A stretch of 6,430 bases of DNA, from contig JAILZY010000141.1 in the NCBI GenBank assembly GCA_023512255.1, positions 1-6,430 of the forward strand, read 5' to 3'. Under the pieces are notes generated by a model, which was given only the letters and a program-made list of their open reading frames with translations, made no database searches and had not been told where the DNA came from. Source of the DNA: a bacterium. GTDB taxonomy: Bacteria > SZUA-182 > DTGQ01. The first letter of the stretch is position 1; every line of letters starts with the position of its first letter. The translations under genes and the position numbers were made by a program. Below are positions 1,799-6,166 of the stretch, piece after piece.

Positions 1799-3205
1799 AT
1801 GGGTATGATGAAACGAACACGAATCGCACAGGTCTTGCAGATGGAGGAATACGGCCAGAGCCTGCTGATCAGGGGATGGGTCCGCACCAGACGGGATGCT
1901 AAGGGTGGATTTTCCTTTATTGAGCTCAACGATGGATCTACCATTGAGAATATCCAGATCGTAGCTGACAGCAGGCTAGAAAATTATCACAGCGAGGTTA
2001 TGAAGATCACCACCGGATGCAGCCTCGAGGTCGAGGGAGAGCTTGTTCCCTCACCCGGCAAGGGGCAAAAGAACGAGATCCGGGCCAGTAGGATTAATGT
2101 CTACGGCTGGGCTGATCCTGAGTATTATCCCTTGCAAAAGAAACGCCATTCCTTCGAATTTCTCCGCCAGATTGCCCATCTTCGCCCCCGAACTAACACC
2201 TTCGGAGCCATAGCTAGGGTACGAAGCGCTATGAGCTGGGCGATCCATAGCTTTTTTCACCAGCGCGGCTTTTACTATATCCACACACCGATCATTACCG
2301 CAAGTGACTGTGAAGGAGCAGGGGAAATGTTTCGGGTTACGACCCTAGATCTTGACCACATCCCCAGAAACCAGAACAATGGCGGGGTTGATTTCAGTCA
2401 GGATTTCTTCGGGCGGCCAACTAGTCTGACCGTAAGTGGCCAACTGGAGGCCGAGGCCTATGCCCTGGCCCTGGGAGATGTGTATACCTTCGGGCCGACT
2501 TTCCGAGCTGAAAATTCAAACACCTCGCGGCATCTGGCAGAGTTTTGGATGGTTGAGCCGGAAATGAGCTTTGCCGATCTACTCGATGATATGGATCTGG
2601 CTGAAGATTTCTTAAAAAATATCTTTAGCTCTGTTTTGGAAACGTGCAGTCAGGATATGGAATTCTTTAACTTGCGGATCGATAATACGATTATCCAGAC
2701 CTTGCAAGAGATAATCAACCACAGTTTTGAGAGAGTGTCTTACGCGGAAGCGATTGAGATTTTACAGAAATCTGGTGAGAAATTTGAATTTCCTGTAGTC
2801 TGGGGAGCAGATCTGCAATCAGAACATGAGCGTTATTTAACGGAGAAGAAGTTCAGAAGGCCGATCATTGTTTTTGACTACCCAAAGGAGATCAAGGCCT
2901 TCTATATGAGGCTCAATGATGATGAGCGGACCGTGCGGGCTATGGATGTTCTGGTGCCCAAGATTGGCGAAATTATCGGTGGAAGCCAGCGTGAGGAGAG
3001 AATCGATGTTCTGAGGCAGCGAATCGCTGAGCTTGGACTTCGAGAAGAGGACTACTGGTGGTATCTGGATCTGCGCCGCTTTGGCTCGGTTCCTCATGCT
3101 GGCTTTGGTATGGGGTTTGAGAGGGCTGTTCAGTTTGTAACTGGCATGGCCAATATCAGGGACGTAATTCCATTCCCCAGAACCCCTAAGTCTGCGGAAT
3201 TTTAA
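1799..3205 (+). CDS. asnS: Asparaginyl-tRNA synthetase
   Basis: A class IIb aminoacyl-tRNA synthetase that charges tRNA-Asn with asparagine using ATP in the cytoplasm. At 468 residues it is full length for bacterial AsnRS. The N-terminal OB-fold anticodon-binding domain spans roughly 8-105 ([19 protein letters not shown] region). Class II motif 1 lies around 139-170, motif 2 at 232-250 ([19 protein letters not shown], with R236 and E238), and motif 3 contains GFGMGFER at 435-442. The [13 protein letters not shown] block and FLTVSGQL-like segment mark it as AsnRS rather than AspRS. An AsnRS means the cell can make Asn-tRNA directly. The start is one of three clustered ATGs (1799, 1805, 1808); the spacing of the upstream GGAG leaves the choice open by two or three residues. 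The hydrolase gene follows closely in the same direction, so co-transcription is likely. Confidence 0.97.
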
Positions 3206-3227: not shown

Positions 3228-3232
3228 TTGCT

Positions 3233-3238
3233 GGAAGG
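3233..3238 (+). promoter_or_regulatory. Ribosome binding site that decides the hydrolase start
   Basis: GGAAGG lies 7 nt before the ATG at 3246, a good spacing. The in-frame TTG at 3228 lies upstream of this site and has no purine-rich site at suitable distance, so the ATG is preferred. Confidence 0.6.
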
Positions 3239-3245
3239 CTTGGCT

Positions 3246-4151
3246 ATGGAATCGCTAGAGTTGATCAGCAGAAAAATCAACACCCTGATCAATCTATGCG
3301 GCCAGATACCCGGCGGTGATTATCTAGCCGTCTTGACTGTCAGTCTGCGCTTGCGGCTTATGGGGGTACGGCCCAAAACTATCTCCCTCTACAATATGAA
3401 ACTCCACTATCTTGAGGCTGGCAAGGGGCCACCCCTTGTTTTGCTGCACGGTCTTGGTGGAAGCTCACTTGGGTGGGCTTTAAATATCGAGCCGCTGCGA
3501 ACAAAGTTTCATGTCCTTGCCCCGGATCAGATCGGCTTTGGACGATCATCCAAACCGCTTATCTCCTACCGTATCTCACTGATGGCCGAATACCTTCTTG
3601 AATTTCTATCCACTCTCAGAATCCACAAGGTAATGCTGGTGGGAAGCTCGCTGGGAGGATGGATCGCGGCTCACCTAGCCATAAACTATCCAGAGTGGGT
3701 CGAAAAATTGGTTCTTGTGGATAGTGCAGGCTTTGCCCTGGATCAGCCTCTGTCTGTCGAAGAGCGTGAATTGCTGAATGCTCTAACCCTCACCTCAGCC
3801 AGGAAATTTGCTCGCCTGCTCTTTTTCTGTCCTGATTTTATCCAAGATTCAGGCTTAAAGATGCGGCTGAAAATGAAGCTGACCTCTCATGAGCCATATG
3901 TCATAGACCGTTTTCTGGACGCCATTGATCAAAAACAGGATATCTTAGATCATCAACTCTCCAGGATCAAAGCTCCCACCCTGATCATCTGGGGAAGAGA
4001 GGATCAAATCATTCCCGTAGATCATGCCTTGAGGTTTCAGCGGGAAATTAGCGGCTCAAAACTAGTTATCTTCGACCAGTGCGGCCATGTTCCCCAAGTT
4101 GAGAAAGCAGCCAGGTTCAATCAGGAAATCATACACTTTCTTTTAGCCTGA
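3246..4151 (+). CDS. Alpha/beta-fold hydrolase, substrate unknown
   Basis: A 301-residue serine hydrolase of the alpha/beta superfamily, resembling the esterase, lipase and C-C bond hydrolase group. The core begins near residue 47 (LYNMKLHYLEAG). The oxyanion motif HGLGG is at 68-72, followed by the DQIGFGRS strand-turn (94-101). The nucleophile elbow GSSLGG gives Ser135. The acid is most likely D253 in WGREDQIIP, and the base is H281 in CGHVPQ. The triad is intact, so the enzyme should be active. A lid region lies between about 165 and 240. The first 45 residues form an extension with no clear signal peptide; the LAVLTVSLRLRL stretch could be amphipathic and membrane-associated. The gene begins 40 nt after the asnS stop and is probably read from the asnS promoter. 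Substrate cannot be assigned from sequence alone. A longer version from TTG 3228 (307 residues) is possible but less supported. Confidence 0.88.
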   Translation: MESLELISRKINTLINLCGQIPGGDYLAVLTVSLRLRLMGVRPKTISLYNMKLHYLEAGKGPPLVLLHGLGGSSLGWALNIEPLRTKFHVLAPDQIGFGRSSKPLISYRISLMAEYLLEFLSTLRIHKVMLVGSSLGGWIAAHLAINYPEWVEKLVLVDSAGFALDQPLSVEERELLNALTLTSARKFARLLFFCPDFIQDSGLKMRLKMKLTSHEPYVIDRFLDAIDQKQDILDHQLSRIKAPTLIIWGREDQIIPVDHALRFQREISGSKLVIFDQCGHVPQVEKAARFNQEIIHFLLA

Positions 4152-4210
4152 TTTTGGAAGGAACCCTTATTTTTGGAAGGGACCCTTATTCAATAAGGGT
4201 TCTTTCCAAA
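4152..4210 (+). repeat. Hairpin 1: duplicated left arm sharing one right arm
   Basis: Immediately after the hydrolase stop, a 19-bp unit is repeated in tandem (4152-4170 and 4171-4189) with one mismatch (A4162 versus G4181). The second copy folds with 4194-4210 into a 17-bp stem (4172-4188) with loop TTCAA and two G-U pairs. The first copy could pair with the same right arm with only one G-U pair, so the two left arms compete. The G-U pairs would be A-C mismatches in the opposite strand's RNA, which hints that the structure matters in the plus-strand transcript. No T-run follows, so a classical terminator is not evident, though mRNA 3'-end stabilisation is plausible. Confidence 0.85.
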
Positions 4211-4217
4211 CCATCCT

Positions 4218-4253
4218 CCTAAAACTTTAATATTAAGATATTAAAGTTTTAGG
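4218..4253. repeat. Hairpin 2: perfect 16-bp inverted repeat
   Basis: CCTAAAACTTTAATAT (4218-4233) pairs perfectly with 4238-4253 around the 4-nt loop TAAG. The stem is AT-rich and symmetric, so it folds equally well from either strand. It sits between hairpins 1 and 3 with only a few bases between them. Confidence 0.9.
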
Positions 4254-4259
4254 AAAAGG

Positions 4260-4303
4260 GTTTAAGGGGAAAACCCTTTTTCAAAAGGGTTTTCCCCTTA
4301 AAC
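4260..4303. repeat. Hairpin 3: perfect 21-bp inverted repeat
   Basis: The arms 4260-4280 and 4283-4303 are perfect reverse complements separated by only TC, giving a near-continuous palindrome with the core ACCCTTTTTCAAAAGGGT. The segment AAAAGGG at 4254-4260 can also pair with CCCTTTT at 4274-4280, so an alternative smaller hairpin exists. The element is flanked by the 7-bp direct repeat TAGGAAA (4250-4256 and 4304-4310). It is not followed by a T-run. It may be part of the end of the asnS-hydrolase transcript or a short palindromic repeat unit. Confidence 0.9.
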
Positions 4304-4347: not shown

Positions 4348-4376
4348 TTTACAATATAAATATCTATGAATATAAT
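4348..4376 (+). promoter_or_regulatory. Strong candidate sigma-70 promoter for the cytochrome gene
   Basis: TTTACA (4348-4353) and TATAAT (4371-4376) are separated by exactly 17 nt, matching consensus at 11 of 12 positions. Transcription should start near 4383, leaving about 240 nt before the cytochrome ATG. It is the best promoter match seen in the window. Confidence 0.65.
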
Positions 4377-4602: not shown

Positions 4603-4619
4603 GGGAGGCTTGAAGGAGG
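4603..4619 (+). promoter_or_regulatory. Double Shine-Dalgarno in front of the cytochrome start
   Basis: Two strong sites lie in tandem: GGGAGG (4603-4608) and AAGGAGG (4613-4619). The second is only 2 nt from the ATG at 4622, which is short, and the first is 13 nt from it, which is long. The in-frame TTG at 4610 is only 1 nt from the first site. ATG 4622 is preferred because a clean signal peptide follows it. Confidence 0.5.
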
Positions 4620-4621
4620 TT

Positions 4622-6166
4622 ATGAGGGCAAAAAATCTATTATTTTTAACTGCTTGTTTAGTTTGTTCCTTTTTACTCTGTCCCCCGGCTGAAGGAGGCT
4701 TCGTTTGCCTTGATTCATCATGTGTAGGCTGTCATGTTCTGCCTACCAGCGCCATAAACGTGGCTCTGACTCATCCCAATGTGCTGGTTGGCTGCATTAG
4801 GTGCCATTCTCCAGAGTGCTTGCCTGGTCTGCATAAAGATGGCATCCGGCAGCTTGATCCGCTCTACTACAATTATACAGGCACGGCGGCTAATATAGGC
4901 TGCAATGTCTGTCATGGAGCTCCTCCCCAGGCTCTGTGTGCTGGAATCGGCAGCACGGTCATGGATCACTGCCTTGATCCGGCAGGCTGTAACCCTGAGA
5001 TTTTCAACTGCATAGCTTGTCATCCCAATTTCAATGGTCTGCCTAACCATATTTATCCTAAGATTCTTGGTGTGCCGCTTTTCTCCACTGTGGCCAGCGT
5101 AGGAAAATGCATGGCCTGTCATGGTCTGTCCCTACTCGTTGGCAGGAGTGGAGCTCATACCACTCACTTTTTTAGTAAGGTCATTGCTCCGGCTACTACA
5201 GCCAGTACAGTGCTCAGTATTGATTGCGCGGTTTGCCATCCTAACCTAGCCGCTAATCTGGGGGCAGACCATTTGGTCTGCATCCACGGAACCTCAAATG
5301 CCTGGCTTCCGGGCAAAGTGCCAGTGGTGTTCAACACTCTATTGGCTCCAATCGGAGATGGAGATTTTTACTCCCTTGGTCTGGTAGGGGGAACTGGAAC
5401 CTGCGTAGTCTACTGCCACAGCAACGGACAGACTCCTCCGACCACCCTCTTGACTGCTCCTTTAGGCTATCCTGGCTCTAATCTGCCCATCCCCTGGAAT
5501 GTGCCTTTCCCGATCGATCCGCTAATCCTTGACTGCGGCTGCTGCCATGCCTTTCCTCCTCTGACCCATTCGGCCTCAAAAACCGGCTGCAACAATTGCC
5601 ATCCCACGCCTGTACTTGGGGCTGCACCGACAAACACATACCACATAAATGGCGTTCCGGATCTGTGGCGGCTCATTCTGTCGGCTAGTCCGGCTGTTCC
5701 GCTCATTCTTCCTTCCCCGGGCTCTGTTTCAAGCAATGATCTGATCCTGGGCTCTGCTCTAGGTGTTGATAAATTCCTTGGGCTTCCAGAAAGTGGCCTT
5801 GGCGCTCTCTTTGGCTCAGGCACTGGGCTTTTGACTGCTCTGGGAATGTCCTCTACGGTTAGCTATAATCCGATCATGAGCGCACCCTTGAGCGTGGCTA
5901 GTGGCAGTCTTCCCTTGACTGACTACCTCATCTCCTCGCCAACCGGCCTTCCCTTATCGCCGCCCACATCTTCTTTGGCCGCCTGGTCAAGCTTTGGCTA
6001 TAGCCCTCAAATCTCCGGCTGGAGATCAATCGGGCTTGTCAGTCCCTGGAATGGGGCTGCATCTTGGCTGCTTTGGCCTGGCTCTGGGTTAATGGCTTCG
6101 GGAGGCACTCTGGTCAATCCTTTCCTTTCCCCTTTTGGCAGGGCAGGATTTCCCTTTTACTGGTAG
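4622..6166 (+). CDS. Secreted multiheme c-type cytochrome with heme-free C-terminal tail
   Basis: A 514-residue protein, probably exported by Sec and heme-loaded outside the cytoplasm, with a likely role in periplasmic or extracellular electron transfer. A signal peptide is visible: Arg/Lys at 2-4, hydrophobic core 5-20, likely cleavage near PPAEG (21-25). Eight CXXCH motifs begin at residues 34, 58, 94, 130, 163, 202, 305 and 323. A ninth, atypical CX3CH (CVVYCH) is at 261-266. Ten other histidines (51, 71, 116, 143, 179, 182, 217, 222, 316, 341) lie between or after motifs, enough for bis-His ligation of nine hemes. Motifs two to six are 33-39 residues apart, suggesting a repeated heme module. 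The 261-316 stretch (YCHSNG, Trp, CGCCH, FPP, His) resembles the Geobacter CxxxxCH...CXXCH domain family but has one residue fewer in the first motif. Extra cysteines at 29, 66, 106, 117, 123 and 220 might form disulfides. After residue 341 there is no Cys or His: the remaining 173 residues are rich in Ser, Gly, Leu and Pro, nearly uncharged, and end in Phe-Tyr-Trp. LTAC (9-12) resembles a lipobox but lies too early in the hydrophobic stretch. A start at TTG 4610 would add four residues. Confidence 0.88.
   Translation: MRAKNLLFLTACLVCSFLLCPPAEGGFVCLDSSCVGCHVLPTSAINVALTHPNVLVGCIRCHSPECLPGLHKDGIRQLDPLYYNYTGTAANIGCNVCHGAPPQALCAGIGSTVMDHCLDPAGCNPEIFNCIACHPNFNGLPNHIYPKILGVPLFSTVASVGKCMACHGLSLLVGRSGAHTTHFFSKVIAPATTASTVLSIDCAVCHPNLAANLGADHLVCIHGTSNAWLPGKVPVVFNTLLAPIGDGDFYSLGLVGGTGTCVVYCHSNGQTPPTTLLTAPLGYPGSNLPIPWNVPFPIDPLILDCGCCHAFPPLTHSASKTGCNNCHPTPVLGAAPTNTYHINGVPDLWRLILSASPAVPLILPSPGSVSSNDLILGSALGVDKFLGLPESGLGALFGSGTGLLTALGMSSTVSYNPIMSAPLSVASGSLPLTDYLISSPTGLPLSPPTSSLAAWSSFGYSPQISGWRSIGLVSPWNGAASWLLWPGSGLMASGGTLVNPFLSPFGRAGFPFYW

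Follow-up and report, generated by a model that had tools for sequence, protein, structure and literature searches.

The window, a 6,430-base stretch of DNA that makes up the whole of contig G000:C170 in a 3.83-Mb genome of 172 contigs, carries the gene for a nonaheme c-type cytochrome that is, judged by sequence, in part known and in part unassigned: hemes 7 to 9 correspond to a triheme unit of the Pfam family PF09698, and hemes 1 to 6 and a long heme-free tail belong to no assigned family. We propose that the product may be a secreted, nine-heme, bis-His electron-transfer cytochrome of the cell surface or extracellular matrix, a reading for which we consider the balance to be even.

A nonaheme cytochrome gene and its relatives

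The gene (positions 4622 to 6166, plus strand) encodes 514 amino acids and is identified from its translation, its orthologues in three other genomes and a low dN/dS. Comparison with the same-genus orthologue gives a dN/dS of 0.034 for the heme region and 0.195 for the tail, and values this low indicate that the reading frame is real. The ATG at 4622 is common to the closest orthologue; an in-frame TTG at 4610 is a possible alternative start. By eye, in this sequence and its orthologues, residues 1 to 26 (4622 to 4699, plus strand) form a predicted Sec signal peptide of the signal-peptidase-I-like type, without a lipobox, and an alignment of the five family members, also read by eye, shows AXA-like signal-peptide ends in the relatives.

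The four strong relatives, from three other genomes, all fall within one taxonomic family. The same-genus orthologue in genome G001 is 83% identical, G002 holds two tandem copies (62 and 58%) and G003 a single copy (64%). Searches with the single sequence (60 genomes) and with a family profile (386 genomes) recovered no relatives in other genomes, in a set whose members G000 to G008 belong to the same class and whose next nearest genomes have only the domain in common with them. Across GTDB contigs, relatives were found only in G002 and G003, which are the metagenome-assembled genomes CSMAG_150 and CSMAG_2299. CSMAG names denote a cold-seep sediment catalogue (PMC10491686), and the host is likely an uncultured bacterium of seafloor sediment. 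No paralogues of the nonaheme cytochrome were detected among the examined multiheme loci (phmmer) or in the whole genome. The architecture formed by hemes 1 to 6 and the tail thus far appears in only one small bacterial family.

Upstream of the cytochrome gene lie asnS, for asparagine-tRNA ligase (1799 to 3205, plus strand), and a gene for an alpha/beta hydrolase (3228 to 4151, plus strand), an order that all four genomes share; G002 has an additional gene, for a tetraheme cytochrome, between the hydrolase and the tandem nonaheme genes. The cytochrome gene may be transcribed alone, because a promoter-like site of its own (4348 to 4376, plus strand; sigma-70-like, TTTACA-17-TATAAT, a match to the consensus at 11 of 12 positions) stands behind a series of inverted repeats at 4153 to 4303. 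The contig ends 264 bases past the gene, and an Rfam search of the window returned no matches.

One of these repeats is a dispersed element. The palindrome at 4260 to 4303, around AAGGGGAAAACCCTTTT, has a 17-base core that occurs 102 times in the genome (50 forward, 52 reverse), and the reversed control of this core does not occur at all; the palindrome is a dispersed palindromic repeat. Further inverted repeats adjoin it at 4153 to 4210 and 4208 to 4263. Elsewhere in the window, the minus strand at 199 to 1503 encodes a hybrid histidine kinase with HisKA, HATPase_c and receiver domains, for which Pfam identified no sensor domain.

Heme motifs, ligation and the PF09698 unit

Eight CXXCH motifs and one CX3CH motif, as had been counted in an earlier note made from the DNA letters, lie on the plus strand and are invariant in the five members. 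They are CVGCH (residues 34 to 38, positions 4721 to 4735), CIRCH (58 to 62, 4793 to 4807), CNVCH (94 to 98, 4901 to 4915), CIACH (130 to 134, 5009 to 5023), CMACH (163 to 167, 5108 to 5122), CAVCH (202 to 206, 5225 to 5239), the CX3CH motif CVVYCH (261 to 266, 5402 to 5419), CGCCH (305 to 309, 5534 to 5548) and CNNCH (323 to 327, 5588 to 5602). Shuffled versions of the protein contain on average 0.055 CXXCH motifs and at most 2 (20,000 shuffles), against the 8 present here. The regular recurrence claimed for motifs two to six was likewise found, with spacings of 36, 36, 33 and 39 residues.

The placement of the non-motif histidines also agrees with that note: there are ten, at residues 51, 71, 116, 143, 179, 182, 217, 222, 316 and 341, and the interval from 261 to 305 contains none. 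All but H222, which is variable, are invariant in the alignment of five sequences, two of which are paralogues from one genome. Invariance of at least nine of the ten has a probability of about 0.009, set against an invariance of 0.49 for non-motif positions across the heme region. Most motifs are followed by one histidine, with heme 7 as the exception and a spare histidine in the pair 179/182. Because nine motifs are matched by nine invariant non-motif histidines, every heme could be ligated by two histidines, and bis-His ligation of all nine is probable on this sequence evidence. Nine ligands for nine hemes would leave no open catalytic site, which argues for an electron carrier and not a catalyst. 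Four further cysteines (106, 117, 123 and 220) are invariant in the five members, and C29 and C66 are jointly absent from one G002 copy, a single event that hints at disulfides.

The last three hemes have a recognizable family. Pfam PF09698 (GSu_C4xC__C2xCH) matches residues 260 to 309 at 23.9 bits, above the curated cut-off of 21.7, over the whole profile (1 to 36 of 36), and all five members match it at E up to 1. In other genomes the units follow the consensus CX3-4CH...W...CXXCH-x-x-PP-x-x-H...CXXCH...H-D/N-G, several of them with CX3CH. When 27 such units from other genomes were combined into a model, it aligned at full length (1 to 76) with residues 261 to 344 (28.2 bits, i-E 2.9e-9), whereas the best single unit in control cytochromes reached at most 17.3 bits. 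Together, Pfam and the unit model mark residues 261 to 344 (5402 to 5653, plus strand) as a Geobacter-type triheme unit that comprises hemes 7 to 9, PPLTH316 and H341-ING. Hemes 7 to 9 and their two histidines share the complete unit with PF09698 proteins, including the CX3CH variant; CX3CH has also been reported as an atypical heme motif in ImcH homologues (PMC6295460). PF09698 proteins differ in being large, multi-unit extracytoplasmic cytochromes, whereas the present protein has one unit, six preceding hemes and a low-complexity tail.

The earlier note had proposed a profile search and could name no family for the protein. This no longer holds for hemes 7 to 9, where the PF09698 match lies above the cut-off but is confined to residues 260 to 309 and does not extend over the full length; it still stands for hemes 1 to 6 and the tail, which gave no such match. 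We considered whether hemes 1 to 6 are diverged PF09698 units and rejected this, since their segments scored 3 to 11 bits, and those of a relative at most 14.7, a level that control cytochromes also reached. An internal repeat of four diheme segments, sought by profile comparison, was not convincing either, as it yielded short, weak matches centred on CXXCH. Searches of NCBIfam with the cytochrome, and of the PDB with the single sequence and the family profile (E up to 10), returned no matches. The nearest other families are Cytochrome_C7 (PF14522; 20.2 bits, curated cut-off 24.8) and Cytochrom_c3_2 (PF14537; 13.6 bits, cut-off 25), both below threshold and both of far fewer hemes; weak matches to these c7/c3 families occur in all five members and cover hemes 3 to 6 in the studied protein.

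A charge-poor heme domain and a fast-evolving tail

The heme region is unusually poor in charge and rich in hydrophobic residues. In the studied protein 7.1% of its residues are charged and its GRAVY is +0.35, and across the five members the ranges are 6.9 to 8.1% and +0.31 to +0.38. Thirty other multiheme open reading frames of the same genome have a median of 21.7% charged residues (minimum 9.3%) and a median GRAVY of -0.64 (maximum -0.21). That low charge is unique to the nonaheme family was rejected in part: the giant PF09698 proteins of G184, a Geobacter-like genome, are similarly charge-poor (mostly 7 to 13%) but less hydrophobic (GRAVY about -0.2 to +0.07). Because of these giants, low charge appears to go with PF09698-type proteins, with which the nonaheme cytochrome shares it.

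The heme-free tail (residues 351 to 514; 5672 to 6163, plus strand) is of low complexity, rich in Ser, Leu, Gly and Pro, 4.8% charged and without a Pfam match in the studied protein. In the five members it is 164 to 250 residues long, 2.2 to 6.0% charged and 11 to 20% aromatic. Its dN/dS corresponds to evolution about 6 times faster than that of the heme domain, and 15 of its 164 positions are invariant, whereas the heme region has 172 such positions among 324. The tail is a real, fast-changing segment that is still under selection. Another protein of this genome (G000:C100:6569-8152, 527 amino acids) has the reverse order, a low-complexity aromatic N-terminal part followed by a C-terminal domain with eight CXXCH motifs that is 9.3% charged.

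Where the cytochrome may act

In the mechanism that we propose, hemes 1 to 6, as three diheme units, and hemes 7 to 9, as the PF09698 triheme unit, would form a close chain, and electrons would run along it through the hydrophobic, charge-poor heme domain. The charge-poor surface could help the protein to associate with its own copies, with the outer membrane or with further extracellular proteins, and the tail, which evolves fast, may act as a sticky segment for anchoring or assembly. Heme chain, surface location and tail role are all deduced; an AlphaFold2 model of the heme domain from a four-sequence alignment has a pLDDT of 25.1.

The location that we favor draws on the signal peptide, as read by eye, on composition and on genome context. 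The genome holds at least 32 other multiheme open reading frames (two or more CXXCH, up to 28 hemes each), a lower bound that is based on stretches around Pfam hits. This richness in multiheme clusters makes extracellular electron transfer likely for the organism. Giant multiheme clusters at G000:C10:7661-26337 and G000:C120:9100-19073 contain proteins with 25, 16, 28, 26 and 21 motifs, next to genes that by eye resemble PPIC-type isomerases, beta-barrels and beta-propellers, and are candidate extracellular electron transfer operons of the lineage. Beside the cytochrome gene itself, neither porin nor secretion-system genes nor genes for further extracellular cytochromes were found on its own contig, in G001 or in G003, and we count this against a surface location. 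The earlier note had suggested an extracellular or outer-surface electron conduit; the nine invariant histidines, the secretion-type N-terminus and the many further multiheme proteins of the genome support an all-bis-His conduit that is exported.

The signal peptide indicates export only, so that a periplasmic protein would so far look alike. As a periplasmic carrier or store, the cytochrome would pass electrons between inner- and outer-membrane cytochromes, which fits a signal peptide with neither lipobox nor membrane anchor and the weak Cytochrome_C7 and Cytochrom_c3_2 matches of the five members, families that include periplasmic carriers. PpcA and cytochrome c3, however, are small, soluble, charged periplasmic carriers, and neither the charge-poor heme domain nor a hydrophobic, rapidly evolving tail of 164 to 250 residues resembles them. 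We regard this location, one of the two main rival readings, as unlikely.

An OmcZ-like filament former, whose heme domain would polymerize into a conductive wire once the tail is removed or displaced, is in our view unlikely. In the OmcZ precursor, the N-terminal heme domain contains eight His pairs and an atypical heme-1 motif, and the heme-free C-terminal part is cut off by the protease OzpA before polymerization (PMC9473688, PMC12307469); the combination of a heme domain with a long heme-free tail, which had matched no family in the earlier note, is therefore not unique. The likeness in layout extends to the signal peptide, an N-terminal heme domain of about 30 kDa with bis-His hemes throughout, one distal histidine per heme and one atypical motif, and a hydrophobic heme domain would favor self-association. 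Yet the OmcZ nanowire of Geobacter sulfurreducens is octaheme, against nine motifs here, and its atypical motif is a 14-residue loop at heme 1, whereas here heme 1 has CXXCH and the atypical CX3CH is at heme 7. The OmcZ tail is Ig-like, unlike the low-complexity tail described above, and no OzpA-like protease was seen by eye among the neighbors in G001 or G002. At E up to 10 the nonaheme cytochrome has no similarity to OmcZ, OmcS and OmcE or to any other chain of solved structure, though filament families are quick to diverge; with no match to OmcZ, for which a solved structure is published (8D9M), it is by sequence not an OmcZ member. The OmcS and OmcE filaments have bis-His hemes, as the present protein probably does, but carry six and four hemes and no comparable heme-free tail; they typically ligate hemes across subunits, and nine histidines for nine hemes would fit ligation both within and between subunits.

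A further possibility, which we hold to be improbable, is that the cytochrome is the electron carrier of an order-specific hydrophobic extracellular material, its tail co-assembling with Gly-Leu-Tyr repeat proteins into a conductive, silk-like matrix or filament. In these secreted proteins, which appear by sequence to be silk- or adhesive-like, repeats of the form GGLYGGLYGG precede a conserved segment of 48 residues, SPFGLQNMYYPVETGTGLTYQVPFLQIAPLLGIAGLYNSLFPNLFNP. They are encoded at G000:C157:40260-40973, G001:C6:98170-98898, G002:C11:13809-14603 and about 20 more places in G000 to G004, and have no Pfam matches. Of 193 genomes searched, four (G000, G001, G002 and G004) contain 5 to 6 copies each of the 48-residue segment, and the others contain none. 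In three genomes, one member apiece has a single CXXCH at its end, and the gene for this heme-bearing member in G002 is separated from the tandem nonaheme genes by 180 bases. A gene for a Tyr-Ser-Gly-Pro repeat protein (GSYGYSPYGASYGSYGYSPYG...), whose start resembles a signal peptide, lies directly upstream of position 40260 on G000:C157 (L077:1-506, minus strand), divergent from the single-heme Gly-Leu-Tyr gene, and likewise on G001:C6.

Multiheme cytochromes often serve as enzymes or as parts of them, but a reductase or oxidase subunit with an active-site heme is highly improbable here: one invariant distal histidine is available per heme, and next to the gene, in four genomes, no enzyme subunit was seen other than asnS and the alpha/beta hydrolase, which are unrelated.

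The cytochrome that we favor as a secreted electron-transfer protein is probably part of the host's extracellular electron passage. It adds a lineage-restricted multiheme architecture, in which six unassigned hemes are followed by a triheme unit that is known and by a hydrophobic tail that evolves fast; the host family is uncultured and rich in multiheme proteins. The hydrophobicity makes assembly a testable property. Should the protein prove extracellular, it would represent one more independent way of carrying electrons beyond the cell.
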